From contig JAOUQB010000011.1 in the NCBI GenBank assembly GCA_029879555.1, positions 1-18,044 of the forward strand: a stretch of 18,044 nt of DNA, in the 5' to 3' direction. Both the position numbers and the translations under genes were made by a program. Every line of letters begins with the position of its first letter. Position 1 is the first letter of the stretch. Source of the stretch: Nitrospirota bacterium (GTDB lineage Bacteria; Nitrospirota; Nitrospiria; Nitrospirales; UBA8639). The notes beneath the pieces are model-generated. The model was not told the origin of the DNA. It did no database searches and was given only the letters and a program-made list of their open reading frames with translations. This document shows positions 4,431 through 17,622 of this stretch, in pieces.

Positions 4431-5225
4431 ATGACAAGCCTGAGCCCCACTGACCACCAAGACTTAACGAGAGCGGTGGACCTTCTCGAAAATCCATCCT
4501 TTGCAGCGAAGGTGACGAATCTCATCGGAGCGCCGGTAGAAAAAGCCATCACGATGCTGCCTAATGGCGTGTCTGAAAAGTTAGTGGGCACCACGCACAA
4601 AGCCTTATCCAAAGCCATGGATTTAGCCGTTTCGACGCTGGATGAACGCTATCGAGGCGAATCTGCCGATGGCGCCCATCGAGTCATGACCACCGTGAGC
4701 GGTGCCGTAGGAGGAGCCTTTGGGTTAATGGCGCTGACCGTGGAGTTGCCGATCTCAACGACCATTATGTTGCGGTCCATTGCTGATATCGCCAGAAGTG
4801 AGGGCGCACCACTTTCTGATGCGGCGACCAAGTTAGCCTGCTTAGAAGTGTTTGCATTGGGTGGGACCAAACACGATGATGATGGCGTCGATACAGGATA
4901 TTTTGCGGTCCGTGCCGCCTTAGCGGGGGCGATGACGGAGGCCGTGAAGTATTTGGCCGAGCATGGATTGTCGAGTTCCGGAGCTCCGGTGCTCGTCAGG
5001 TTTCTCGCCAAAATTGCCTCGCGATACAGTATCCAAGTCACAGAGAAAGCGGCGGCTCAGGCGATTCCTTTAGTCGGTGCTGCGGGTGGGGCCACGATCA
5101 ATTTGTTGTTTATGGATCATTTTCAGAATATGGCACGCGGACATTTTATCGTGCGCCGGTTAGAGCGAACCTATGGCAAAGACCTCATTCGAGAAGCCTA
5201 TCAACGGTTAGCGTCGAGAAACTAA
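4431..5225 (+). CDS. EcsC family protein
   Basis: The 264-residue protein matches the EcsC family (named after the third gene of the Bacillus ecs locus), whose biochemical role is not established. The recognisable core is the glycine-rich hydrophobic stretch followed by VELPISTTIMLRSIADIA (about 91-122), then LACLEVFALGG (about 135-145) and a second hydrophobic helix ending IPLVGAAGGATINLLFMDHF near the C-terminus. It probably associates with the membrane. The ATG follows GGGAGG (4415-4420) at 10 nt. It is 108 nt after ribD and 13 nt before the next gene, with which it is very likely cotranscribed. The preceding 108-nt gap shows no clear terminator or promoter. Confidence 0.88.
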   Translation: MTSLSPTDHQDLTRAVDLLENPSFAAKVTNLIGAPVEKAITMLPNGVSEKLVGTTHKALSKAMDLAVSTLDERYRGESADGAHRVMTTVSGAVGGAFGLMALTVELPISTTIMLRSIADIARSEGAPLSDAATKLACLEVFALGGTKHDDDGVDTGYFAVRAALAGAMTEAVKYLAEHGLSSSGAPVLVRFLAKIASRYSIQVTEKAAAQAIPLVGAAGGATINLLFMDHFQNMARGHFIVRRLERTYGKDLIREAYQRLASRN

Positions 5226-5238
5226 GGAGATCGCAAAT

Positions 5239-5571
5239 ATGCCGTATAGTTTTTTAATTTTTGGATTGCTCTTTCTCGCCTCCTGTACGCAGGAAACCCA
5301 AAATAAAATCGGACGGGCGGTACAGAACTGGACGGGCACTGATGGGGTGTTGGAAGTGTATGCGGGAGAAAAACTCGTCAAGCGATTTTTGAAAATTGAC
5401 AAATTAACGACCGCCACGGGTACGGAAGATGGCCAGCCACGTCCGTACCGTTTTGGCTATGGGGTCTTGGATGCCAACTTGAATGGTCTTAAAGATCCTG
5501 GTGAGCAAAAAGTCTATTTCGAATTCAGCGACTACTCGACTCCGTATATCTTTTACGAAAGCCCGACCTAA
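5239..5571 (+). CDS. Small putative lipoprotein, function unknown
   Basis: The 110-residue protein starts with a short hydrophobic signal and a lipobox LASC, so Cys16 should be lipidated after cleavage by signal peptidase II. The mature part is about 95 residues with a compact beta-rich look (VLEVYAGEKLVKRFLKIDKL, then YGVLDANLNGLKDPGE and VYFEFSDYSTPYIFYE). The DxNxNGxxDxGE stretch resembles a calcium-binding loop, but that is only a resemblance. AAGGAG (5224-5229) overlaps the stop of the EcsC gene and lies 9 nt before the ATG, which suggests translational coupling. I do not recognise the family. Confidence 0.8.
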   Translation: MPYSFLIFGLLFLASCTQETQNKIGRAVQNWTGTDGVLEVYAGEKLVKRFLKIDKLTTATGTEDGQPRPYRFGYGVLDANLNGLKDPGEQKVYFEFSDYSTPYIFYESPT

Positions 5572-5599
5572 TCCCTCGCAATAGATATTTTCTTTTTTC

Positions 5600-6910
5600 A
5601 TGCCATTCAAGGGGTTCATGAAGCTGCGCTCTGCTCCCTTTTGTTGTCTTTTCCAAGCCGTATGCTGGGGTGTCATGTTCTTTGGCCTCCAAACCGCCTT
5701 TGCCCTTGAGCCTTCACCTCTTGGTTCCTTGGTCCGAGACTATATTCGCGGAGGATCAGCCGAATCTTCTCAGGAGATTCTTCAGGCAATCCTTCAACAT
5801 CCCGATGCCAATTTCCACACGGTAGAAGCGGCGATCCGTCAGGCCCCGCGCTATTCGAACGCTCCGGTTGGTGCGCAACCTAAACGATTGGTAACGGTAC
5901 GAGGTCAGGATGCCTCGTTTGCGTTGTATGTGCCTCCTACCTATACCCCTGAGCGAGCCTATCCCCTGATTGTGTGTTTGCATGGGGCGGGGTTTACTGG
6001 CGAAGCCTATCTGGATCGATGGGTCCCGCGCTTAGAGAATCGATATATCCTGGCTTGTCCCACAATTTCTATGGGGGCCTGGTGGACGCGATTTGGCGAA
6101 GATCTCACCTTGGCAGTTTTGGGAAATGTTTCGGAGGAATATCACATCGATCCCGACCGGGTTTTTCTAACGGGTATGTCGAATGGCGGAATCGGCACGT
6201 GGATCATTGGGATGCACCATGCCGACATTTTTGCGGGTATTGCGCCCATGGCCAGTGGCATTGACGATGTCTTATTTCCTTTTCTAGCAAATTTGACGCA
6301 GACCCCGGTTTACGTGATTCATGGGGCGGAAGATCAGGTTATGCCCGTAGAGCTTAGTCGGAACTTGGTGAAAGAAATGACACGGCTCGGGATTCCTCAT
6401 CTCTATCACGAACATCAATGGACGCATCCACATGCCGGTGGCCATTTCTTTCCTCGACAGGAATTGCCGGAGTTGATTGCCTGGTTTGATCAGCAGCGAC
6501 AAATGTCATTGCCAAGAAAGGTTACAGTGGTCAGAGATGCGACGCATCTGACGCCATTCTCTTGGGTGCGGATTGATTCGACCGATCAGATTGCCGCCTT
6601 CACCGAGAACCTAATTGATAGTCGTGATGAAATGATCACGGGAGGGATTTTCGCCAAGCTTCATGCCGAGATTACTACCTCCAACACCATCGTTGTGACT
6701 GCCAATCGAATCAGGCGTTATACGGTTTTTCTCAATCAGGACCTGGTGGATTTCTCCAAACCTGTGACCGTGGAAACGAATGGGAAGATTTCGTTTGAAG
6801 GGATGGTAGAGCCCAGTATCGAAACCCTTCTTCAAGAAGTTCGAAGCGGCCCAGACACTCATATCCTTTTCCCCGCCAAACTCATCATTAACTTGCCATC
6901 ATTCCAGTGA
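5600..6910 (+). CDS. Secreted alpha/beta hydrolase (PHB-depolymerase/feruloyl-esterase-like)
   Basis: The 436-residue protein has an N-terminal signal peptide with a likely cut after AFA (residue 35, counted from 5600) and an alpha/beta-hydrolase domain (about 85-295). The oxyanion segment is PLIVCLHGAG. The nucleophile elbow GMSNGG gives Ser194, HGAEDQVMP gives Asp245, and HAGGHFF gives the probable catalytic His282. A beta-rich C-terminal region (about 300-430) resembles the extra domain seen in some secreted prolyl-oligopeptidase/PHB-depolymerase-like esterases. The substrate is unknown. The start is uncertain: ATG 5600 has no Shine-Dalgarno, while ATG 5618 follows AAGGGG at a short 3-nt spacing and gives the better signal peptide (MKLRSAPF...). 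It follows the lipoprotein gene by 28 nt on the same strand. Confidence 0.85.
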   Translation: MPFKGFMKLRSAPFCCLFQAVCWGVMFFGLQTAFALEPSPLGSLVRDYIRGGSAESSQEILQAILQHPDANFHTVEAAIRQAPRYSNAPVGAQPKRLVTVRGQDASFALYVPPTYTPERAYPLIVCLHGAGFTGEAYLDRWVPRLENRYILACPTISMGAWWTRFGEDLTLAVLGNVSEEYHIDPDRVFLTGMSNGGIGTWIIGMHHADIFAGIAPMASGIDDVLFPFLANLTQTPVYVIHGAEDQVMPVELSRNLVKEMTRLGIPHLYHEHQWTHPHAGGHFFPRQELPELIAWFDQQRQMSLPRKVTVVRDATHLTPFSWVRIDSTDQIAAFTENLIDSRDEMITGGIFAKLHAEITTSNTIVVTANRIRRYTVFLNQDLVDFSKPVTVETNGKISFEGMVEPSIETLLQEVRSGPDTHILFPAKLIINLPSFQ

Positions 6911-6954
6911 ATATTGCTTCTTGTAGGGAAAGGCGAAGATCGAAAAAGCAAGAG

Positions 6955-7833
6955 TCAGGATGTTGAGTTCGATGAGTTGTGGCAGTGTTGTTCGCGGATG
7001 GTGAGGGCTTCGGGCATCCATTTTTCGAATTGTTTAATGCGGGTTTCGTGGCTGGGATGGGTGGACATAAATTCTGCCGGTTGCTGCCCCTGGCTCATCT
7101 CCCCCATGCGCTCCCACAAGCGGGGCGCTTCGGTCGGATCGAAACATGCGCGGGCGACGAATAAGAGCCCCATATAGTCGGCTTCCGACTCATGGTCCCG
7201 TGAAAAGGGTAGGAGAACCCCGTATTGGGCGCCAACGCCTAAGGCGCCCATGACCGCGCGTTGCGTTTGATAATCCATATCTCCCAAGGCCACGCTGGCC
7301 GCCATCGATCCAATCTGGACTAACTTTTGGTAGGCCATTCGTTCTGCCCCATGCCGGGCAATGGCATGGGCAATTTCATGGCCCATGACGACGGCCAAGC
7401 CATTGGCATTTTCTGCCACAGGAAATAACCCCGTATAGACCGCTGTTTTCCCGCCTGGTAACGCAAACGCATTGGCCTGGTCGGATTGAATGACATTAAA
7501 TTCCCAGTCAAACCCTGGATCCACATCTGCGGCGGCATTGGCTAATTTCCGACCAATGGTTCTGATGAGGTCCACTGCTTCTCCTTGGGGAACCACTTGG
7601 GATTGGCTGAGAATATCTTGGTAGGATTGCAAGCCTAACGACATTTCCTGCTCACGGGTCATATCCACGAGATGTGTGCGCCCGGTGATGGGGACGGCTT
7701 CTTGATTCGAGACGTAATAGTACAGGCCGTAGATGGCAAACAGCGCAATGGGAATCAAGCGGACTTTCCAGCTCATGCGTTGGCGTGGCTGGCCACCCAT
7801 TCCGCGTCTTTGGCCAAATGGTCCTAGGCGCAT
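6955..7833 (-). CDS. Membrane-anchored M48 family metalloprotease
   Basis: The protease domain shows the zinc motif HEIAH (His152, Glu153, His156 from the 7833 start) in VVMGHEIAHAIARHGAERM. A downstream ESEAD supplies the third zinc ligand, as in M48 (BepA/LoiP/Oma1-type) peptidases. One membrane segment near the N-terminus (VRLIPIALFAIYGLYYYV) should place the enzyme on the outer face of the inner membrane, where such proteases help envelope quality control. The C-terminal STHPSHETRIKQFEKWMPEA is the usual M48 end. The open frame extends to 7953, but that start overlaps the upstream gene by 68 nt and adds low-complexity sequence. ATG 7833 gives MRLGPFGQRR... and 292 residues, the expected size. 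It lies 52 nt downstream of the DUF937 gene. Confidence 0.92.
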   Translation of the reverse strand: MRLGPFGQRRGMGGQPRQRMSWKVRLIPIALFAIYGLYYYVSNQEAVPITGRTHLVDMTREQEMSLGLQSYQDILSQSQVVPQGEAVDLIRTIGRKLANAAADVDPGFDWEFNVIQSDQANAFALPGGKTAVYTGLFPVAENANGLAVVMGHEIAHAIARHGAERMAYQKLVQIGSMAASVALGDMDYQTQRAVMGALGVGAQYGVLLPFSRDHESEADYMGLLFVARACFDPTEAPRLWERMGEMSQGQQPAEFMSTHPSHETRIKQFEKWMPEALTIREQHCHNSSNSTS

Positions 7834-7885
7834 AGCGTGCTCATTCCCAGTGAAGGCCGTGCAGGTTGACCTGCTAGAGACATGC

Positions 7886-8440
7886 TCATGCTCCGAAAAA
7901 TTTCTTGGCCGCGATACCGAGCAGATCGTCGGCAATGGATCCATCTCCATCAAAGTCTAGAAGGGACGTGAGCCCTCCTAATCCTGAAGGTTGCGCTTGG
8001 GCCTGGGCTCCGAGCATGCCTGAACCAGTGGCCTTTTGACTGAGCGCACCCATCGCCAGTGAAGCCACCATGGGCAACATTTGCTTCAGGATATCTTCCC
8101 CAATCCCGGTGTTTGCCGCAGCCTTGGAGGCGATACCCCGGCTGACCTCTTTGCTGCCGAACACATGCCCTAATATCCCGTTGCCATCTTGAATGCTCTC
8201 TGCACGGCCCAGTAACTTCGGTTGTTCCAGATATCGTTGGTGATTGCCTTTTCCCAGGGCTCCTAACAATGCCCCTAAGCCATCACCTGAAGATCCGTTA
8301 TTGCCAATGGCTCGGGCCACCGCCGGTAACAATTGGCCCAGGGCGTTTTGTGTTTGTGATTCCCCAAGACCGAGGGATTTGGACATGTTTTGAACAACTG
8401 CACCACCGCCTGCGTTCAGAATCGTCTCTAAAAGATTCAT
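7886..8440 (-). CDS. DUF937/YidB-like protein
   Basis: The 184-residue protein is rich in Gly, Ala and Leu. It starts MNLLETILNAGGGAVVQNMSK and contains ILGHVFGSKEVSRGIASKAA, both typical of DUF937 (E. coli YidB type), a family without an established function. The C-terminus LLDFDGDGSIADDLLG contains a DxDxDG loop like those of dockerin/EF-hand repeats and common in this family, so calcium binding is possible. AAAGGAG lies about 9 nt upstream of the ATG on this strand. It precedes the M48 protease gene and the two probably form an operon. The 272 nt upstream (8441-8712) show no gene or convincing promoter. Confidence 0.88.
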   Translation of the reverse strand: MNLLETILNAGGGAVVQNMSKSLGLGESQTQNALGQLLPAVARAIGNNGSSGDGLGALLGALGKGNHQRYLEQPKLLGRAESIQDGNGILGHVFGSKEVSRGIASKAAANTGIGEDILKQMLPMVASLAMGALSQKATGSGMLGAQAQAQPSGLGGLTSLLDFDGDGSIADDLLGIAAKKFFGA

Positions 8441-8712
8441 GAGAAAAACTCCTTTCGCCAGAATGAAGGAATAAAAAGGAAAATGTATGTGCCTTTAAGA
8501 CTTTCACAAACGAGAGGGGAAGGAAAGCTTACGTTAAGCCGGGGAAAAGTGCTATACGGGATTTCACTGAGAAAAAAAGGCTTGTTGAAACTCGCTTAGG
8601 TGTAGAGGCTTAAGGGCTGACAGGGTTATCTGGCCAAAACCCACTATGGCGTTGAGAGAGGATAGGCTGAGGGAATAGGTGATATTGACTGGGCGTCAAG
8701 AAATATTGGGTA

Positions 8713-9147
8713 TCATGTATTCGTAGCCTTTCGATGATGTTGTTGGTGGGCGATTCCAAATCCAAGACAGGCAAGGCCAAAGATAGGAATCATGAAGAGG
8801 TCTTCGCGCAAAGGACGGATGACGGCATGAATATTAGGTGCGAATGGGAGAAAACCAACGGCTATGGTTGGAAAAACTTCTTGATCCGTAAGGGTCCTAA
8901 GATCGGCAATTCCCGCATTCACAATGGTCGTGCCCTGCCTTAACTCATCAGACTCCAAAAAGCGATAGGTTACAGCGACTTGTCTTGTTGAGGAGGTTGA
9001 GGTAAGGGAGCCTCTCGGGCGATAGCCGGGCCGATCGGCTAAGGGCTTTGCTTCGATCCCTTCTGCCATGACGGGTTGGCCGAGTATCCCAAGCAGAACC
9101 TGCTGGCCTTCTTGATAGAACCAGCCACCGATGAAAAATATTCCCAA
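8713..9147 (-). CDS. Two-TM membrane protein, DUF3592-like; start uncertain
   Basis: The protein has two hydrophobic segments, one at the N-terminus and LFMIPIFGLACLGFGIA near the C-terminus, around a soluble domain of about 90 residues. The domain order (VAVTYRFLESDELRQG, then IAVGFLPFAPNIHAVIRP, then TM) resembles DUF3592, whose function is unknown. The only standard start codon in frame is TTG 9147, which has no properly spaced Shine-Dalgarno and cuts the first TM helix. The frame is open upstream to 9297 and would encode KGKKPFILEVP..., then LPSSLLLLGLGIFFIGGWFY, a complete TM segment. CTG 9225, preceded by AAGAAGGGGAAC, is a candidate non-AUG start. A sequencing error or true CTG initiation would explain this. 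It follows kbp on the same strand. Confidence 0.65.
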   Translation of the reverse strand: MGIFFIGGWFYQEGQQVLLGILGQPVMAEGIEAKPLADRPGYRPRGSLTSTSSTRQVAVTYRFLESDELRQGTTIVNAGIADLRTLTDQEVFPTIAVGFLPFAPNIHAVIRPLREDLFMIPIFGLACLGFGIAHQQHHRKATNT

Positions 9148-9183
9148 TCCTAGCAGGAGGAGAGAGGATGGGAGGTGGGATGA

Positions 9184-9237
9184 AAGAAGGGGAACCTCAA
9201 GGATGAATGGCTTCTTTCCTTTCAGGTTCCCCTTCTT
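9184..9237 (-). repeat. 14-bp perfect inverted repeat downstream of kbp
   Basis: AAGAAGGGGAACCT (9184-9197) and its exact reverse complement (9224-9237) flank a 26-nt loop, inside which AAGG (9199-9202) can also pair with CCTT (9218-9221). On the - strand the hairpin lies 9 nt after the kbp stop codon and is followed by TCATCCC rather than a U-tract. It could be a weak terminator, a processing site or an attenuator between kbp and the two-TM gene. It also overlaps the possible N-terminal coding extension of that gene. Confidence 0.7.
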
Positions 9238-9245
9238 GGCACTGA

Positions 9246-9683
9246 TTACGGTAACGGAATTCGGATTTTTTGTCCGGGATAGATCAAATTGGCATCTTTA
9301 ATGACTTCCCGATTGGCCTCAAAAATTTTGGGGTAGGCCATCGCATCCCCTAAATATTTCTTGGCAATTTTTGAAAGGGTATCGCCAGATTGGATGATAT
9401 AGTATTCGACCTTGGCTTTTTGCTCAGGGGCGGTTAGTTTTTCAGCAAACACCTCAGCAACCCCTTTGACATTGCCCGCTAACAATACGGCTTTTTCTTT
9501 GGTTTCTGGGCTGGGTGCTTGGCCGGCCAGAAAGACCTTCCCGTCGTCTTCCTGAAATTCAACGGTTAAGTTGGTAATGCCAAGTCCGCGGGATTCGAGA
9601 TGTTCCCGAATTTTTGCGGCGGGATCGTCCTTGCTTCCAAATACTTTTTCTCCGATGCTTTTGACGAAATCAAATAATCCCAT
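9246..9683 (-). CDS. kbp: Kbp/YgaU homologue, BON and LysM domain protein
   Basis: The 145-residue protein matches the E. coli potassium-binding protein Kbp (YgaU) in length and architecture. It has an amphipathic start MGLFDFVKSIGEKVFG, a BON domain (about 21-85, with KEKAVLLAGNVKGVAEV) and a LysM domain (about 93-143, YYIIQSGDTLSKIAKKYLG ... IFEANREVI ... LIYPGQKIRIP). In E. coli Kbp binds K+ and is linked to stress and cell-envelope physiology; the same role here is inferred from homology. The open frame reaches 9860, but ATG 9683 is preceded by AGGAGG at about 7 nt and gives the family's conserved N-terminus, so the longer start is rejected. The 281 nt to the divergent gene at 9965 contain no other gene I can support. 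Confidence 0.93.
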   Translation of the reverse strand: MGLFDFVKSIGEKVFGSKDDPAAKIREHLESRGLGITNLTVEFQEDDGKVFLAGQAPSPETKEKAVLLAGNVKGVAEVFAEKLTAPEQKAKVEYYIIQSGDTLSKIAKKYLGDAMAYPKIFEANREVIKDANLIYPGQKIRIPLP

Positions 9684-9964
9684 TGAAATCCTCCTGCAGA
9701 TAGGGAATTGGTGAGAGAGGGGGATTGAATTGTCATGCCACCATATCGGGTCTGTCGCTATTAGTAAAGATCCTGGTGCGGAGATTGTTGAGGGGGGATG
9801 ATGAGGCTCTTGAGAAATATCTTCAGGCATGATTTCATAGAAAGGCTGGGGAAACATCACGGGTGTTGTGTCGCGGTGGGTATCTCTGGCCCATCGCTAT
9901 TCCCTCATCACATCTCACGGCCTATCAGAATGCCGGTGATCGGCATGGGCATCAAGGGGGCGCT

Positions 9965-11403: not shown

Positions 11404-12105
11404 CTAGTAAATAATGAGTGTGGACCCCGTTGGCACATGACGATAGAGATATTCTAAATCGGTATCACCCAAACGGATGCAGCCATGGGTGACATTCGTT
11501 CCTAATAATCGTGTGTAGAGGGTGCCATGAATGAAATAACCATTACCAAATCCCAGGGCATAGTCCCCCAGCACCCCCGTTTCAAGGCGGTCTTTGGGTT
11601 TGGTGGGAACGGATTCTCCCTCTTCGATAAAGGCCCAGTCCGGTTTAACCCAAACGGGATTTTTAATTTTGTTGAGGATCGTATAGACCCCGCGCGGAGT
11701 TTCAAACACCCAACCTTTATTCGGATCTCTGGGGTCTTGCAGGCTTGCGCCACTGCCAGTCGAGGCTACGGCCGTATGAATGATTGTCTCGCCCTCTCGT
11801 ACTTCCAGCCTATTTTGCGCAGTATCAACGACCACATACATGCCCTTGGGAGCGAGTCCTTGCATGGAAGTGCGGATAGGAAAGGGCCGAGCAGAAACCT
11901 TGGCAGTGGAAATCGCCGCGTCATTTTTCTGGAGATGTTTCTTAGGTGAGGTAAGGCTAGTGGCCAGAGATGCCGTTGTGATGACAGGAAGGGTAATGAG
12001 CATCAGCCAGAGAAGGGCCTTCACGAATGGCGCTTGAAAAATTGAGTGTCGAGAATTAGGGCTTGGCATACAAGTCTGCTCGTTGGGAGCTTGGTTCTTT
12101 TTCAT
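11404..12105 (-). CDS. L,D-transpeptidase, YkuD domain with canonical HGC motif
   Basis: YkuD enzymes form 3-3 peptidoglycan cross-links or attach lipoproteins to peptidoglycan in the periplasm. The 233-residue protein has an N-terminal signal/anchor (ALLWLMLITLPVITTASLA, about 30-48). Its C-terminal YkuD domain starts MYVVVDTAQNRLEV and contains TPRGVYTI, FIHG (His193) and THGCIRL (His207, Cys209), the canonical catalytic arrangement. The ATG at 12105 overlaps the end of the upstream transpeptidase gene by 50 nt. ATG 12069 would shorten the overlap to 14 nt. Neither has a clear Shine-Dalgarno, so coupling to upstream translation is likely. Unlike the two larger transpeptidases in the window it lacks the helical domain and keeps the standard HGC. 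Confidence 0.9.
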   Translation of the reverse strand: MKKNQAPNEQTCMPSPNSRHSIFQAPFVKALLWLMLITLPVITTASLATSLTSPKKHLQKNDAAISTAKVSARPFPIRTSMQGLAPKGMYVVVDTAQNRLEVREGETIIHTAVASTGSGASLQDPRDPNKGWVFETPRGVYTILNKIKNPVWVKPDWAFIEEGESVPTKPKDRLETGVLGDYALGFGNGYFIHGTLYTRLLGTNVTHGCIRLGDTDLEYLYRHVPTGSTLIIY

Positions 12106-13282
12106 GTACGTTACGGCGTTGGATATGGTCTTCCAAGGTATGGAGGGTGCTTACCACTTCGTTGTTAGTATCGAGCGCACCAACGATCGTAATCGGTCCT
12201 CCCAAGGCCATGCGTTGAAACACGTGTTCCATCGCCTCGTTCTCCAGGGCAATGCATCCATTGGTACGATCGTCGGAATTGAGGTTTTTGCCATGGATTT
12301 CAATGGCGCTACCCACAGTTCTTCCTTCAGGAATTTCCCCCAAAGCTTGGAGCTCTTGGAAGCGGTTTTGATGTTCTGGACTGGGATAGTTGATGAGCAG
12401 GGCGCGATAAAATTTGGTTTCTTCACCCCCTTTTTTCCGAATCACACGAAATCGTCCTTCGGGTGTCGCCCCGTCTCCTTCAAATTGTTTGTCCAGTAAA
12501 CCGGAAAAACCCAAATCAACCGGATACTCGGCGACCACCTGACCCTGACGATAGAGTAATAATTTTCGAGAGGCCTTGTGAGTGATAATCGCTGCCCCAC
12601 CCGTTGCAGTTGACCATTGAATGGTGTCCTGTGCCCATTGATTCCAGCGAGCCAGTTGTTCAGAGTCAGAGTACCGATGCATCTGTTCAACCATATGCTT
12701 CTCGACAGTTTGGAGGGATGAGACCGCATTCTTCACGGCCAGCCGAGCTTTCCCAAACTGACCGGCCTCTAATCGTGTGGAGGCCTCGTTCAACAGGCCT
12801 TCGGCATGAGAAAGAGTTGAGACGTCCGGGCCCATTTCAAATAACGAGGTGAGGGATCGTAATCGGGAGACCTGGTCATATTCGGGGCGAATCAGATCAT
12901 CAATGTCCATTCGAAGGGCCAATGATTTTTGGCGGATCGCCTCCAAGAGAAGGGTGCCTTCACTCATCAATTCGTTGTATCTCTGGTGAAAGGTGGTTCC
13001 ATCTTTGGGAAACCACCATTGATTGACAGCTGTCCGCCAGTCGTGACGAATTTCAAGGAGCCGGTGATGGAACTGTTGATACTGATCCGGGAATAACTGG
13101 TGGCCGCCTTGAACGAAGAGTGTGCGATCTAAGGTTTCAACTTCGACTGGAAACCGTTCGGGATAGTCAGGAGTTCCCCACCAAGAATACGCCAAGACGG
13201 GAATGCCAATGAAGGTCACGGTTAATATCAACGGCCATAGCCGTTTCAGGATAGTTCCCCATTCGAGCCGTAGGATCTTCAC
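12056..13282 (-). CDS. Membrane-anchored L,D-transpeptidase with TNGC active-site variant (copy A)
   Basis: The 408-residue protein has a TM anchor (about 15-35, LWPLILTVTFIGIPVLAYSWW), a periplasmic helical region (about 45-230) and a YkuD domain (about 235-370). The YkuD domain reads KASRKLLLYRQGQVVAEYPVDLG ... GDGATPEGRFRVI ... IEIHG (His330) ... RTNGCIAL (Cys343). The usual [ST]HGC is TNGC. This [T]-x-G-C-[IV]-A version occurs in a distinct YkuD subgroup, so it is probably active, with the second histidine replaced. It is paralogous to the gene at 14406-15626 along its whole length, with the same 13-residue His-Cys spacing. The ATG lies one nucleotide after the stop of the DUF4398 lipoprotein gene, so the pair is tightly coupled. 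Confidence 0.9.
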   Translation of the reverse strand: MKILRLEWGTILKRLWPLILTVTFIGIPVLAYSWWGTPDYPERFPVEVETLDRTLFVQGGHQLFPDQYQQFHHRLLEIRHDWRTAVNQWWFPKDGTTFHQRYNELMSEGTLLLEAIRQKSLALRMDIDDLIRPEYDQVSRLRSLTSLFEMGPDVSTLSHAEGLLNEASTRLEAGQFGKARLAVKNAVSSLQTVEKHMVEQMHRYSDSEQLARWNQWAQDTIQWSTATGGAAIITHKASRKLLLYRQGQVVAEYPVDLGFSGLLDKQFEGDGATPEGRFRVIRKKGGEETKFYRALLINYPSPEHQNRFQELQALGEIPEGRTVGSAIEIHGKNLNSDDRTNGCIALENEAMEHVFQRMALGGPITIVGALDTNNEVVSTLHTLEDHIQRRNVHEKEPSSQRADLYAKP

Positions 13283-13283
13283 C

Positions 13284-13913
13284 TTATACCTGAACTTTCT
13301 CCGCCTGACTGACGGTAGAAAGGATGCGTTCGTGAATCGCCAATGCGACGGTTTCCACCACGTGGGCGGTACTCATGACTTGGATGTAGTCCCCTTGGCT
13401 CAGCATTCCTGTTTCAATGGTATTGAGCAGGGCCTCTGCTCCTTGTAGGGCCTTCTGCAATTCATGGAACTGTTGTGGTTCAGGGAGATGGGCTCGTCGT
13501 TCCAGAAGAAGCGCTTGGGTTTGCTGAATATTTTGCCTGGCTAAGATCAGGGCGATCTGGGCATTGTTTTTGGTTTCTTCAAGGTTCAACGAGGCCTCAG
13601 ATTTCGCCTGATCCGCTTGCGCCAGTGCCAGGTCTAACATCCGTTTTCCTTGAGCGTAGGTTCTCCACCATGCGAACTTGGCATCTTGGTTATCTAGTTC
13701 GTTAATCGCTTGGCTATATGAAAGCTCCGCTTGCTGCAATTGTTCATAGGCGTATTCTTGGGCGCCAGACAAGCGGGCGTCGTGTAATGTTCGCAAGACC
13801 GCATCGATTTGCCCCGAAGGCCGTTCGGCGCATCCCTGAGTGACAAGGGTTCCGGCAATGGCCAGGAGTAGGCACCATTCCCAAAATTTCAGCCGTAAAG
13901 ATTGTGTCTGCAT
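13284..13913 (-). CDS. DUF4398-type coiled-coil lipoprotein (copy A)
   Basis: The protein has 209 residues from ATG 13913. A hydrophobic signal (WCLLLAIAGTLVTQGC) ends in a lipobox-like sequence with Cys28, although Thr and Gln at -3 and -2 are not ideal. The remainder is almost entirely helical, with DAVLRTLHDARLSGAQEYAYEQLQQAELSYSQAINELDNQDAK and a long KSEASLNLEETKNNAQ helix, as in DUF4398 lipoproteins. Its role is unknown; a periplasmic scaffold for the coupled L,D-transpeptidase is my inference. It is paralogous to 15630-16244. The frame runs from TTG 13934, but ATG 13913 gives a normal signal sequence. A terminator (13951-13984) lies just upstream, and I find no sigma-54 site of its own. 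Confidence 0.83.
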   Translation of the reverse strand: MQTQSLRLKFWEWCLLLAIAGTLVTQGCAERPSGQIDAVLRTLHDARLSGAQEYAYEQLQQAELSYSQAINELDNQDAKFAWWRTYAQGKRMLDLALAQADQAKSEASLNLEETKNNAQIALILARQNIQQTQALLLERRAHLPEPQQFHELQKALQGAEALLNTIETGMLSQGDYIQVMSTAHVVETVALAIHERILSTVSQAEKVQV

Positions 13914-13950
13914 GTCTCGCTTCTGATTCAACAAGATTGTGTCTATGCTC

Positions 13951-13984
13951 TAAATAAAACAGGGGCCAAACGATTTGGCCCCTG
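13951..13984 (-). terminator. Rho-independent terminator after the 37-codon gene
   Basis: CAGGGGCCAAA (13960-13970), loop CGA, and TTTGGCCCCTG (13974-13984) form a perfect 11-bp GC-rich stem. On the - strand it is followed by TTTTATTTA (13959-13951). It lies 78 nt after the stop of the 37-codon gene and 37 nt before the DUF4398 copy A start, so it separates the two. Because no separate promoter is visible in the short gap, partial read-through into the copy A operon is likely. Confidence 0.9.
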
Positions 13985-14062
13985 CCGTGTTTCCCATTGG
14001 TTTGCTGGAGATGAATGTGCTAGCAGGGATTCTTTCTCAGCCAACCTAGAAGGAAATTGATT

Positions 14063-14199: not shown

Positions 14200-14218
14200 G
14201 TAAATCAATATGATTTAC
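14200..14218 (-). repeat. Palindrome at the 5' end of the small-protein transcript
   Basis: GTAAATCA (14200-14207), loop ATA, and TGATTTAC (14211-14218) form a perfect 8-bp inverted repeat. With the sigma-54 start predicted near 14222, the hairpin would begin about 4 nt into the mRNA and end 9 nt before the Shine-Dalgarno. It could stabilise the short transcript or act as an operator. Confidence 0.6.
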
Positions 14219-14232
14219 TCCTGAGTATCAAC

Positions 14233-14248
14233 AGCAAAGGTAATGCCA
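14233..14248 (-). promoter_or_regulatory. Sigma-54 (-24/-12) promoter of the 37-codon gene
   Basis: On the - strand the sequence is TGGCATTACCTTTGCT, against the consensus TGGCACGN4TTGCW. All critical GG and GC bases and their spacing are present. Counting 12 nt from the GC puts the start near 14222, giving a 46-nt leader. The 16 nt are identical to the promoter at 16371-16386. Confidence 0.8.
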
Positions 14249-14332
14249 GATTGTTGGATGCGGGCAGGCCTCAATAACCCAAGATATCTTAGGAAAATAG
14301 CAATGGAGCTAGTCGATAGAGATAATTCGAAA

Positions 14333-14362
14333 GACAAGCTGTCCAAATGAAGAAATTTTGTC
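14333..14362 (-). promoter_or_regulatory. Putative enhancer-binding-protein site (UAS) for the small-protein promoter
   Basis: On the + strand the site reads GACAAGCTGTCC (14333-14344, dyad GACA-N3-TGTC) followed by GAAGAAATTTTGTC (14349-14362). It begins exactly 85 nt upstream of the sigma-54 promoter, the usual range for an activator site, and lies just after the stop of the copy B transpeptidase. The same composite element is at the same distance at 16470-16500. Confidence 0.65.
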
Positions 14363-14405
14363 TCTGCTGCGTTGGATGCTTGAGAGCGCTGAAAGGATGA
14401 AGATC

Positions 14406-15626
14406 TTATTCAATAACCTGACGGGACAAGCCAATGGGAGAAGGTTGGACAACCGATTCCCGTTGAGTGTGATGCTGTTGAATAGGCTCCAAGGTCTTGG
14501 AGACGGGGTTAATGGGATCGAGTGTGCCGACGATGACCACGGGAGTGTTCAATGGAATAAGGGGAAAGAGAGTATCCATGGTGGCGTTGTTTAAGGCAAC
14601 GCACCCGTTCGTGAGCTCTCGTTGTCCTGGCCGTTGCCCGTGGATTTCAATGAGGCCTCCGATTCCTCGATTGCCCGGGATTAATCCCTGGGCTCGAGCA
14701 TGTGAAAATCGGTGTTGGTGGGCAGGGGTCGGGAAATCCAGCAGAAAGGCTTTATGAAATTTCGTTTCTCCCTTGTGTTTCTTTTGAACAATATGAAAGA
14801 GGCCTTCCGGTGTCGCGCCATCCCCTTCGTAAAGTTTGTCTTGGAGCCCGGAGAAACCGAGGTCGGTAGGATACTCATGCCGAAGGAGCCCGCCTTGATA
14901 GAACTGAAGTTTCCGGGACGCTTTAATCACCACCATCGCCGAGCCACCTGTTTGGCGTGAATGTTCGATGGTGTCCTTCACCCATCTCGCCCACTGTGCG
15001 ATCTTTTTCTCATTGGAGTAGCGAATCATTTGACGGATGAGAATTTCCTCGATAGGCCGAATGACGACCTGGGCTTGCATCAATAGGTGCGGGACGGCAT
15101 CAAGCTGACCTTGAGCCAAATGAGAGAGTCCTTGAGCGAGATAACTCTCGGCGTGGGAGAGCGGGGTGCGTTTCCCACGGAAATCGAACAATCCATTGAG
15201 GCGGCGTAATCTAACGAGTTGGGCCTGTTCCGCTTTGAGCGAGTCTTTGAGCCCATTTTGCTGGAAGAGAGCTTTCTTTTCAGTATCCGTCAGTAAGGTG
15301 GCGCCCAATTGCATGAGTTGTTGATTCGTATCAGTGAATTCTTCAAGGGTCCAGGTTGCCCACCACCGCGTAACTTCGACACGCCAATGTTGACGGAAAT
15401 CGGTGACTTCCTGGTGAAAGGCGGCATATTGCTTGGGGAACAAATTTGCGCCCCCAGCCAGCCAAATTTGGCGGTCTAGGTGTTCGACGGCTGTGGGAAA
15501 TGTGGGAGGAAGACCTGGCGCACGCCACCAGAGAATCAGAAGAGCGGAAAGAAGAAACAGGACTCCGGCTCCCAGCCAACACGACTGTCGTTTGGCCAGC
15601 GTGGGGCCAGAGCCCTGATCTCTCAC
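14406..15626 (-). CDS. Membrane-anchored L,D-transpeptidase with TNGC active-site variant (copy B)
   Basis: The 406-residue protein has a TM anchor (about 17-34, WLGAGVLFLLSALLILWW), a periplasmic helical region, and a YkuD domain (about 230-365). The YkuD domain reads KASRKLQFYQGG ... DLGFSGLQDKLYEGDGATPEG ... IEIHG (His329) ... LTNGCVAL (Cys342). It is a full-length paralogue of the gene at 12056-13282. Shared stretches include FxxAVE/VEV-xLDR, LSHAE, GGxAx(V/I)xxKASRKL, LGFSGL and EGDGATPEG. As in copy A, Asn replaces the histidine before Gly-Cys. The start ATG lies 3 nt after the DUF4398 copy B stop, so the two are cotranscribed from the sigma-54 promoter at 16371-16386. Expected role: peptidoglycan cross-linking or lipoprotein attachment in the periplasm; which of these is unknown. 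Confidence 0.9.
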   Translation of the reverse strand: MRDQGSGPTLAKRQSCWLGAGVLFLLSALLILWWRAPGLPPTFPTAVEHLDRQIWLAGGANLFPKQYAAFHQEVTDFRQHWRVEVTRWWATWTLEEFTDTNQQLMQLGATLLTDTEKKALFQQNGLKDSLKAEQAQLVRLRRLNGLFDFRGKRTPLSHAESYLAQGLSHLAQGQLDAVPHLLMQAQVVIRPIEEILIRQMIRYSNEKKIAQWARWVKDTIEHSRQTGGSAMVVIKASRKLQFYQGGLLRHEYPTDLGFSGLQDKLYEGDGATPEGLFHIVQKKHKGETKFHKAFLLDFPTPAHQHRFSHARAQGLIPGNRGIGGLIEIHGQRPGQRELTNGCVALNNATMDTLFPLIPLNTPVVIVGTLDPINPVSKTLEPIQQHHTQRESVVQPSPIGLSRQVIE

Positions 15627-15629
15627 TGA

Positions 15630-16244
15630 TTAAGCTTTGACCTTTCCAGCTTTTTGCATGGCATGGGCGACTTGTTCGTTAACTCGAGTGGCTAGGGCTA
15701 AAACGGATTCCGCTTTGGCTTTCACGCCCAAGTAATCTTCTTTGGCCATAATCGGATCAATTTCGCCAAGCGTGGTGTCTGCCGCTTGAAGATCGCCGTG
15801 TAAGGCTTGTAGGTCGGCTTGTGTCCCTTTTCCTCTTGGAGCTTGAGCCAAGAGATTTTTGGCATCAGCCAAGGTAGTTTTGGCCAGCACAACCGCGGCT
15901 TCTGCATCCATTTTAGCTTGTTGTTTATTGGCAATGGCTTTGGTCTTGGCTTGTTCGGCATTGGTCACCACTTTTGCCAAGATCGCATTGGCTTCGTCGT
16001 AATTTCGCATGAGGACAAAGGCCTGGTCCTGTGTGGTAATTTCTTCTTGGGCTTTTTGGTATTCGTCTTCAGCCAGGCGTAAATCCTCCGACGCATAATC
16101 AGTTGCACCGGCTTCTTTGGCAGCCTGAATAGCTTGTAAGGCCTGATCGGTGACTTGGACGGGTTTTTCAGCACACCCCCAAGCAAGGGTTCCGCAAAGA
16201 ATGGCGAGAGTTCCTGTCCGAATGATTGTTGATGCAGCGTTCAT
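15630..16244 (-). CDS. DUF4398-type coiled-coil lipoprotein (copy B)
   Basis: The 204-residue protein has a signal sequence ending LAWGC (Cys24 as probable lipidation site). An almost all-helical, Ala/Gln/Lys-rich body follows: ALQAIQAAKEAGATDYASED, then DLRLAEDEYQKAQEEI and KTKAIANKQQAKMDAEAAV. This composition and the early A-G-A-x-x-Y-A motif match DUF4398 lipoproteins and the paralogue at 13284-13913. AGGAGGT (16261-16255) lies 10 nt before the ATG. The gene is the first of a two-gene unit with the L,D-transpeptidase 3 nt downstream, under the sigma-54 promoter at 16371-16386. A periplasmic spacer/scaffold role next to peptidoglycan is inferred from the pairing, not shown. Confidence 0.87.
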   Translation of the reverse strand: MNAASTIIRTGTLAILCGTLAWGCAEKPVQVTDQALQAIQAAKEAGATDYASEDLRLAEDEYQKAQEEITTQDQAFVLMRNYDEANAILAKVVTNAEQAKTKAIANKQQAKMDAEAAVVLAKTTLADAKNLLAQAPRGKGTQADLQALHGDLQAADTTLGEIDPIMAKEDYLGVKAKAESVLALATRVNEQVAHAMQKAGKVKA

Positions 16245-16316
16245 CTGTCTTTCGACCTCCTAGTGTTTTTTGGGGGGTGAACAGCCCCTGAATAAAGTGA
16301 AGAGAGACCGGATTGA

Positions 16317-16336
16317 CCTTCAACGAATATTGAAGG
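16317..16336 (-). repeat. Inverted repeat in the leader of DUF4398 copy B
   Basis: CCTTCAA (16317-16323), loop CGAATA, and TTGAAGG (16330-16336) form a perfect 7-bp stem. It lies about 24-43 nt into the predicted sigma-54 transcript, well ahead of the ribosome binding site. A leader hairpin also occurs in the 37-codon gene's transcript, though the sequences differ. Confidence 0.55.
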
Positions 16337-16370
16337 ACCGAGGATGTTCATGTTCCAGGTCATGATGGAT

Positions 16371-16386
16371 AGCAAAGGTAATGCCA
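16371..16386 (-). promoter_or_regulatory. Sigma-54 (-24/-12) promoter of the DUF4398/L,D-transpeptidase copy B operon
   Basis: The - strand sequence TGGCATTACCTTTGCT fits the RpoN consensus in every critical base and is identical to the promoter at 14233-14248. The predicted start is near 16360, giving a 116-nt leader before the ATG at 16244. Confidence 0.82.
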
Positions 16387-16690
16387 AGAAATGCTTCGGT
16401 AGAATGTCTTCAAAGCCTCAAAATGGTCTGTAAATAAGAGGAATGCATCAAAGAGTGACGATGCACCGTGGACAGGTTGTCCATGCGAAGAAATCTTGTC
16501 CAAGGGTGATGGGATTTTGTATGACTAATGTGGGTACTCGAGCGGCGCTCGTGGGGAGATTTTGGAGATGGGAAAATTATGAAAAACTGGCAGTCCGGAC
16601 AACTTGAGTCCTCGATATAGAGGCTGGAGGTGGGAAGGTGCCCCACTTCACAAAGGATCGTGGATGAGACCGCATGTCTTTGAGGGGGTT
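16387..16690. other. Intergenic region upstream of the copy B operon
   Basis: No open frame here has a ribosome binding site or recognisable product. The stretch holds the composite activator site (16470-16500) and a 6-bp inverted repeat TGCATC/GATGCA (16444-16449 and 16460-16465). The part from 16501 to 16690 shows nothing I can support. Confidence 0.5.
16470..16500 (-). promoter_or_regulatory. Putative enhancer-binding-protein site (UAS) for the copy B promoter
   Basis: On the + strand GGACAGGTTGTCC (16470-16482) is a perfect 5-3-5 dyad, followed by GAAGAAATCTTGTC (16487-16500). The GACA begins exactly 85 nt from the promoter end at 16386, matching the arrangement at 14333-14362. The spacers between element and promoter show little similarity, which argues for selection on the element itself. 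Confidence 0.68.
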
Positions 16691-16729
16691 CTTCAACCCA
16701 CCATGGGGCCGTGCCCTGGTGGGTTGAGG
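16691..16729 (-). repeat. Strong hairpin downstream of the coiled-coil gene
   Basis: CAACCCACCA (16694-16703) pairs perfectly with TGGTGGGTTG (16717-16726). Three further outer pairs (one G-U) and an inner GGG/CCC extend the stem. On the - strand it starts 24 nt after the stop of the 105-residue gene. No U-tract follows, so it is either a non-canonical terminator or an mRNA 3'-end stabiliser. Confidence 0.6.
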
Positions 16730-16752
16730 CATTCTATGAGGAAGGCTTGGTC

Positions 16753-17070
16753 TTAGCCCACCAATTCAGCGACAGGCTTCTGGGAAGAACGATGAATATA
16801 TTTTCGGGATTGTGTCCAGCGACGGTGAGATGATGGCGTGGGTTTCAATGTTGGCTGCTGGTTGATAGATGATTGCGAATCTTTCGTTATGGCCAAAGTA
16901 TCCTCAGCCTGTTGTAGCTCTTTGAGGCGAGAATGATGTTGCTCCAATTCCCAAGCTACCGCCTTGGTGAGTTGAGCAATCTTGGCGCTTAGTTGATCCA
17001 TGGTGCGCTCATGATGTTTCACTTCACTGTTTCTGGCCACACTAATGTACTTGGCGTCTGCGTATGTCAT
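16753..17070 (-). CDS. 105-residue coiled-coil protein, function unknown
   Basis: The ATG at 17070 is preceded by AGGAGGAGG (17089-17081), 10 nt upstream. The body contains a heptad-like amphipathic helix (about 18-62, MDQLSAKIAQLTKAVAWELE then HHSRLKELQQAEDTL), which predicts a coiled coil. A Ser/Pro/Gln-rich linker and a basic C-terminal tail (HRRWTQSRKYIHRSSQK) follow. There is no signal peptide, TM segment or Cys, so the protein should be cytosolic. It has its own sigma-54-type promoter (17158-17173) and a 3' hairpin (16691-16729), forming a stand-alone unit. I do not recognise the family. Because it shares the promoter type with the neighbouring envelope operons, a role in the same response is likely but inferred. 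Confidence 0.72.
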   Translation of the reverse strand: MTYADAKYISVARNSEVKHHERTMDQLSAKIAQLTKAVAWELEQHHSRLKELQQAEDTLAITKDSQSSINQQPTLKPTPSSHRRWTQSRKYIHRSSQKPVAELVG

Positions 17071-17157
17071 CTTGATGGTTCCTCCTCCTGTGGTAATGAT
17101 TCTTCAACCTGACCAATTCATCAATTCCGGATCTGCGGATGGTAGAGGGATACATCA

Positions 17158-17173
17158 AGCAAAAGTATTGCCA
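17158..17173 (-). promoter_or_regulatory. Sigma-54 (-24/-12) promoter of the coiled-coil gene
   Basis: The - strand sequence is TGGCAATACTTTTGCT, with the critical TGGCA and TTGCT at the correct spacing. It differs from the other two promoters at 3 of 16 positions, all outside those blocks. The predicted start is near 17147, with a 77-nt leader before ATG 17070. Confidence 0.75.
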
Positions 17174-17622
17174 GGATTGATGGAGGTGACAGTGAGCCGT
17201 ACAATCGCTTGATCTTCTTCGTGAATTTGTCTGGGTGCCTGTATGCCAGGGAGAGAAAGAAAGCTGTGACTCTCGGCAATCGTTAATCTGGATGACAAGA
17301 AGGATGGAATCGTGTCGAGAAGTGAGAAGATTGGCAAATGTTGCACGAAATTGGACAGTGTCCGCAAAGAACAAAGAAAACTTGTTCGACACTTTGATCA
17401 ATGTGCAGTCGAGATGTATAGCGTTGGAACAGCGCCAAGATCATGCCGACCGGTGTGTTGAAGATTTTTGGGGATATTTTTGTTGGTCTGTGAGGGTTTA
17501 TGGCGATTTCTGATCGTCCTGCTCTAGGGGGCGGCATTTTTTCCGAAAGGGTATCGTAGATCAGCGATGGTTGGTATTGTTGGAGAATGGTGCAAGCCAT
17601 TTGAACGGGAAGGACTGGACTC
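17174..17622. other. Long intergenic region between divergent units
   Basis: No open frame here has a convincing ribosome binding site or product. A + strand frame at 17235-17513 has neither a recognisable sequence nor a good start. The stretch contains the activator-like site at 17353-17387 and presumably the promoter of the gene at 17623, which I could not identify. Confidence 0.5.
17353..17387 (-). promoter_or_regulatory. Possible enhancer-binding-protein site for the coiled-coil gene
   Basis: GGACAGTGTCC (17353-17363, dyad GGACA-N1-TGTCC) is followed by AGAAAACTTGTTC (17375-17387). It echoes the GACA/TGTCC plus AGAAA-TTGT layout of the two stronger sites, but with different internal spacing and about 180 nt from the promoter. 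It could also serve the divergent gene at 17623. Confidence 0.4.

Follow-up and report, generated by a model that had tools for sequence, protein, structure and literature searches.

Three sigma-54 (RpoN) promoters lie in an 18,044-nucleotide (nt) contig of a Nitrospirota bacterium (JAOUQB010000011.1 of assembly GCA_029879555.1), ahead of a small-protein gene, a lipoprotein/YkuD operon and a coiled-coil gene. In our favored reading, which we hold with a probability of roughly 0.8, all three are RpoN promoters, those of the small-protein gene and the lipoprotein/YkuD operon are served by a common NtrC-family activator and that of the coiled-coil gene by another, and the output concerns the envelope or stress. 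The whole contig (contig C71 of the host draft genome, which has 605 contigs and is 91.76% complete) is called the window below. Comparisons drew on 20 genomes of the genus, 48 of the family and 235 of the order, 187 of them outside the family.

Three sigma-54 promoters in the window

A first-pass annotation, made from the letters of the window, had placed three RpoN-like 16-mers on the minus strand, and all three were found exactly at those positions (Table 1). Each has TGGCAYR-N4-TTGCW-like boxes with GG-N10-GC. The only copies of TGGCAN6TTGCT without mismatches in the window are the three sites themselves, each on the minus strand. The same pattern with up to one mismatch occurs at six places, against a mean of 1.36 in shuffled sequence, and six was reached in none of 200 shuffles. 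The exact pattern averaged 0.065 occurrences over 2000 Markov-simulated windows, none of which had three copies. The remaining one-mismatch places (3785, 9456 and 15929) all fall within the spans of longer open reading frames (ORFs), in agreement with the earlier statement that the window has no additional intergenic site. From site to start codon the distances are 56 nt (start 14176), 126 nt (16244) and 87 nt (17070), given previously as 57–127 nt. Transcription is predicted to start 11–12 nt past the -12 GC, near 14222, 16360 and 17147.

The motif alone is a weak predictor, because TGGCAYN5TTGCW is found at 19 places in the draft genome versus 8 for the reversed pattern; read from translations, the 19 include places upstream of a flagellar-type protein, universal-stress-type proteins and response regulators. 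It is the conservation tests that establish the three sites.

Conservation of the promoters in relatives

Ten orthologues of the lipoprotein (at least 70% identity, the window's own included) were counted in the 20 genus genomes, and nine have the promoter; the tenth locus is at a contig end with just 31 nt of upstream sequence. The small-protein promoter, TGGCATTAYCTTTGC, stands ahead of the small ORF in all 12 second-lipoprotein/small-protein loci retrieved by protein similarity, ending in T in ten and in G (TTGCG) in two. The coiled-coil gene is present in 15 of the 20 genus genomes and its promoter in 15/15, with spacers that vary: column identity is 100% in the boxes, 71% on average in the six spacer columns and 58% in the flanks, where the boxes also served to choose each site and none of the 15 was without one. 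More generally, sites were located with a strict pattern, so that box conservation is partly built in, and the share of orthologues that carry a site is the fairer measure.

By these fractions the predicted promoters are conserved across related marine-type nitrite-oxidising bacteria. This conservation bears out the first-pass proposal of RpoN promoters ahead of the named genes on the correct strand, and the three sites, far from what chance would give, appear to be real sigma-54 promoters. In some relatives the three units are spaced several kb apart on the chromosome.

An upstream element shared by two promoters

Alignment of the three upstream regions revealed one repeat common to two of them, those of the small-protein gene and the lipoprotein/YkuD operon. 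The consensus of this shared element is RGACAA-N14-GACA-N3-TGTC, a putative activator site that is new here. A search of the 20 genus genomes with TGGACANNNTGTCN5GAAGAAATNTTGTC (at most three mismatches) gave 18 places in 11 genomes and none for the reversed pattern; by position, all 18 sit at lipoprotein or small-protein promoters. A composite pattern, GACAN3TGTC followed after 71–101 nt by TGGCAN6TTGC, gave 26 places in 21 of the 48 family genomes (reversed, 1), comprising 16 small-protein, 2 lipoprotein and 2 YtxH promoters and 6 others. Across the 235 genomes of the order the composite occurs at 32 places (reversed, 2), of which only 6 belong to the 187 genomes of other families. The element recurs in two other genera besides the host genus. 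Twelve of the small-protein loci were found through protein similarity and are independent evidence for the element; those of G009, G010, G038 and G047 were picked up through the element itself and are not.

The distance from the element to the TGG is nearly fixed: 83–86 nt in 15 of the 16 small-protein promoters (96 nt in G047), 105–107 nt at seven lipoprotein promoters, which belong to one clade, and 84 nt at the remaining two (G000 and G004, where the lipoprotein and small-protein promoters share a locus and the distance is that of the lipoprotein's own element). The step of ~22 nt is near two turns of DNA. An extra GACA half-site lies 20–21 nt farther upstream in 15/16 small-protein promoters. 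The same element and promoter, 84 and 86 nt apart, precede the YtxH-type genes L111 and L127 (in G004 and G016; PF12732 over cut-off). A relaxed family-wide pattern in which N9 replaced the N8 that separates TGG from TTGC gave 10 places versus 4 reversed; none of the 10 is at a lipoprotein or small-protein promoter, so that the pattern amounts to an incidental control on box spacing and is uninformative on further regulon members.

The coiled-coil promoter has a different element

GACAN3TGTC was found upstream of the coiled-coil gene in none of the 15 genomes. A palindrome-like element, GTNA-N7-TRNC, instead lies 107–109 nt before the TGG in 14 of the 15 coiled-coil promoters, and a further conserved element, TGTCGA, at 201–206 nt in 12 of them. 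A second activator for this promoter would be the simplest reading, and there are probably two activator circuits rather than one. The protein itself had no match in a Pfam scan.

The small protein and its transcript

The small protein, 37–39 amino acids (aa) long, is present in 16 genomes of three genera and is under purifying selection. The pooled ratio of nonsynonymous to synonymous differences (pN/pS) is 0.28, pN is below pS in 120/120 pairs, and differences at codon positions 1, 2 and 3 number 717, 706 and 1823. A strong ribosome-binding site, AAGGAGG, is conserved before the ORF. A 50-aa version from a relative retrieved three entries from 5.8 billion proteins, so standard gene calling seems to miss the gene. 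In G009 and G010 the small gene is present and an intact YkuD match is absent, which makes the gene independent of the YkuD operon.

The leader carries a hairpin. Among 13 of the 16 leaders (G008, G002 and G010 being omitted as near copies) the 7-base-pair (bp) stem is paired in 98.9% of cells, with two pairs altered on both sides, and the covariation score was equalled in 1 of 500 shuffles. A GC-rich stem is found at the terminator position in most relatives whose sequence extends there. An Rfam scan of the window gave no match.

RpoN and candidate activators

The first-pass proposal depended on rpoN in the host genome, and rpoN is there: the N-terminal 201 of 505 residues are encoded at the end of contig C483 with 77% identity. 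A profile search of the draft with PF04552 gave 0 matches, suggesting that the gene was absent; this was ruled out by a full-length RpoN query from a relative, which matched the N-terminal part. PF04552 was missed because C483 stops within rpoN, leaving the C-terminal domain in the gap. PF04552 is found in 18 of the 20 genus genomes and in 9/9 of the good ones.

The activator domain PF00158 has 16 matches in the host genome. Thirteen score above 180 bits, and GAFTGA is present in nine of those. At the 16 activator loci exact GACA-N1..3-TGTC sequences are few, and none there is accompanied by a TGGCAN6TTGC site.

The lipoprotein/YkuD operon and its paralogues

The lipoprotein scores 18.8 bits against PF14346 (cut-off 27.9); several close homologues are listed with PF14346, and NCBI calls some of them DUF4398 protein. 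The YkuD enzyme consists of a predicted membrane helix (residues 12–33), a helical domain (46–226) and then the YkuD domain, in which the catalytic His and Cys are invariant in 15/15 aligned sequences. YkuD matches of this type are present in 15 of the 48 family genomes. The predicted structure, which includes the long helical domain, has a mean predicted local distance difference test score (pLDDT) of 76.8 and is weak over the catalytic loops. Used as a Foldseek query it matched LdtMt1/2 and YkuD in the YkuD part only, with a TM-score on the query (TMq) of ~0.2, and none among the matches listed covered the whole protein. By sequence profile, Pgp2 and a Csd6-type entry come closest among solved structures. 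Pgp2 is an L,D-carboxypeptidase. Of the earlier label 'L,D-transpeptidase', the YkuD domain with its catalytic His and Cys stands, together with the fold matches; the label is a fold assignment, the nearest sequence profile is that of Pgp2, and a carboxypeptidase activity appears equally possible.

The operon is one of two tandem paralogous lipoprotein/YkuD pairs (11404–13934 and 14406–16244), whose lipoproteins are 30% and YkuD proteins ~40% identical. No Pfam family exceeded its cut-off on the second lipoprotein-like protein. A third YkuD protein (11404–12105), with the motif THGCIRL, comes after the tandem pairs.

Table 1. Features of the window, with positions on the 18,044-nt contig.
Feature	Position	Strand	Remark
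Putative activator element RGACAA-N14-GACA-N3-TGTC, small-protein gene	14333..14363	-	84 nt before TGG
Upstream element GGACAA-N14-GACAACCTGTC, lipoprotein/YkuD operon	16471..16501	-	84 nt before TGG
Predicted upstream element GTCATCCAGATTAAC (GTNA-N7-TRNC), coiled-coil gene	17282..17296	-	108 nt before TGG
Further conserved TGTCGA element, coiled-coil gene	17377..17391	-	203 nt before TGG
Sigma-54 -24/-12 promoter TGGCATTACCTTTGCT, small-protein gene	14233..14248	-	exact match, conserved in relatives
Sigma-54 promoter TGGCATTACCTTTGCT, lipoprotein/YkuD operon	16371..16386	-	exact match, conserved in relatives
Sigma-54 promoter TGGCAATACTTTTGCT, coiled-coil gene	17158..17173	-	exact match, conserved, variable spacer
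Coiled-coil-like protein, 105 aa	16753..17070	-	in 15/20 genus genomes
DUF4398-like lipoprotein	15630..16244	-	PF14346 E 0.0024, below cut-off
YkuD-domain enzyme	14406..15626	-	YkuD over Pfam cut-off, His329 and Cys342
Leader hairpin GTAAATCATATTGATTTAC, 7-8 bp, just past predicted start	14200..14218	-	covariation
Lys/Pro-rich small protein MNQPNQKNQPKAMPTGKPSAAPAGKPQGAPAKKPFGK, 37 aa	14063..14176	-	coding selection, 16 genomes
Intrinsic terminator after small ORF, 13-bp stem	13958..13986	-	GC-rich stem in relatives
Second lipoprotein-like protein, past terminator	13284..13913	-	30% identity to 15630-16244; ORF listed from TTG 13934
Second YkuD protein	12056..13282	-	YkuD match

Five distant DUF4398-type paralogues in four genomes (L047, L048, L049, L050 and L052) have a sigma-54-like site 133–161 nt before the matched start, TGGCGTAGGATTTGCT in four of them and TGGCGCAAGACTTGCT in one. 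All five have GGACAAA ~105 nt before the matched start, and four have TGTC at ~78 nt. Three other weak lipoprotein-paralogue loci (L035, L036 and L051) begin at a contig end. Given the sites at the weak paralogues, the regulon may be larger. In another genus, L106 and L107 (G041 and G043) have a doubled element and a sigma-54-like site ahead of an epimerase-like gene. Elsewhere in the window (4431–9860) there are further genes of envelope or stress type, encoding EcsC, an M48 peptidase, a DUF937 protein and a BON-LysM protein.

A model of regulation and its alternatives

We propose that RpoN polymerase is held at the boxes until an NtrC-type activator, bound to an element at a fixed distance, opens the promoter upon a signal, which would probably be envelope or general stress. 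A common activator would act at RGACAA-N14-GACA-N3-TGTC, ~110–130 nt upstream of the transcription start, on the small-protein and lipoprotein/YkuD promoters, and in relatives the same circuit may extend to the YtxH genes. The coiled-coil gene would be on a parallel circuit, with another activator at GTNA-N7-TRNC. With a hairpin at its start and a terminator at its end, the small-protein transcript would be a short, probably stable mRNA, and partial read-through could reach the second lipoprotein/YkuD pair. The predicted output is a burst of small protein together with remodelling of peptidoglycan or of the link between peptidoglycan and outer membrane. The first-pass description, a clustered RpoN regulon devoted to the envelope, holds for the conserved sigma-54 promoters, and the lipoprotein and YkuD enzyme plausibly serve the envelope; the regulon is not uniform, as the third promoter has a different element, and an envelope role of the small and coiled-coil proteins is conjecture.

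Several results weigh against this model. Six of the 26 composite places in the family are at unrelated genes or within ORFs and represent background; no recognisable gene of the set lies near any of the six outside the family, and some are inside ORFs. The operon is not universal, because lipoprotein and YkuD matches are wholly absent from six genus-level relatives among the 48 family genomes (G003, G009 and G011–G014), as also from G018. The window's leader hairpin is no more stable than shuffled sequences (z -0.69), and its covariation is based on few independent changes. As for the activator, PF00158 has matches in 14/14 control genomes, so that the domain proves nothing by itself and GAFTGA is the informative part; an NCBIfam scan of 10 of the 13 candidates put none over cut-off; and inspection by eye of the ORFs listed near the loci in two relatives revealed no recognisable activator gene.

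One activator might serve all three, with degenerate TGTC half-sites at the coiled-coil promoter, where TGTCGA is conserved in 12 of the 15 and the window has the TGTC-containing GGACACTGTCC near 17355; the lack of GACAN3TGTC in all 15, and the different palindrome-like element in 14, make this improbable. That the shared element and the identical 16-mers are functionless remnants of a duplication of promoter, lipoprotein and YkuD gene would fit the paralogy of the two pairs, yet the genes have diverged down to 30–41% identity while boxes and element are kept in up to 16 genomes of three genera at near-fixed spacing, and the element also precedes the unrelated YtxH genes; we give this explanation very little credence.

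Two further alternatives concern the small-protein transcript. It could act mainly as a regulatory RNA, like the sigma-54-driven GlmY, with the ORF secondary: a short terminated transcript is predicted, its leader has a hairpin and it would be under sigma-54 control. The codon-position bias, the pN/pS values, the conserved AAGGAGG and the lack of an Rfam match in the window argue against this, and we regard it as quite unlikely. The palindrome at +4 to +22 could, on the other hand, be an operator, bound by a repressor as DNA, and not a hairpin in the RNA. The paired changes are compatible with either and the folding energy is unremarkable; nothing decisive speaks against an operator, though its extreme 5' position also fits an mRNA-stabilising stem. 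We consider the operator less likely, though far from negligible, and keep to a leader hairpin in the model of two activator circuits.

On a wider view, we tentatively suggest, at somewhat short of even odds, that the window exposes a so far undescribed sigma-54 regulon for envelope or stress functions in marine-type Nitrospirales. Its most conserved output, the unannotated 37–39-aa Lys/Pro-rich protein, would act with DUF4398-type lipoproteins, YkuD enzymes and YtxH proteins under an activator reading TGTC/GACA; in function the regulon would resemble the phage-shock or QseF systems, with different parts.

Relation to known systems

Francke et al. (2011; PMC3162934) described sigma-54 as controlling the exterior of bacteria and connected it with genes for lipoproteins and peptidoglycan; in the part of that article available to us Nitrospira appears just in the legend of a taxonomy figure, and the window's genes and elements are not mentioned. 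The promoter type and the idea connecting sigma-54 with the cell exterior are already known, and the regulon is apparently undescribed. A single literature search on Nitrospira with sigma-54 and RpoN found nothing on these promoters or genes, and one on YtxH with sigma-54 found no papers; DUF4398 did not occur in the papers listed by a related search, and the words sigma, RpoN and transpeptidase are absent from the main text of PMC10579370, which deals with cultured marine Nitrospirales. Little is known about regulation in nitrite-oxidising Nitrospira. Here comparative genomics alone offers three promoters open to testing, a conserved small protein and two predicted activator sites whose positions are given exactly, and cultured relatives make transcript mapping feasible.

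PilR half-sites are TGTC, and the usual YkuD motif is SHGC[IV]R. A search for literature on PilR/GlrR half-sites found nothing usable. Like LdtMt2, B. subtilis YkuD, Pgp2 and Csd6, the operon's enzyme has a YkuD domain with invariant His and Cys; it differs in its motif, TNGC[IV]AL (or TSGC), and in its long helical N-terminal domain.

With RpoN promoters that have NtrC-family sites the window's promoters share TGGCA-N6-TTGCW, GG-N10-GC and conserved upstream elements at fixed spacing, and the host genome has rpoN and candidate activators with GAFTGA; the targets here include an unannotated small protein. The QseF/GlrR regulon of enterobacteria (GlmY, sigma-54) resembles the present case in a sigma-54-controlled short transcript and in TGTC/GACA half-sites. 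The QseF/GlrR consensus is TGTCN10GACA (PMC8745638), whereas the window's element is GACA-N3-TGTC with a GACA 20 nt upstream and does not fit that consensus; neither glmY nor qseEGF was recognised nearby, and the product in the window is a protein.

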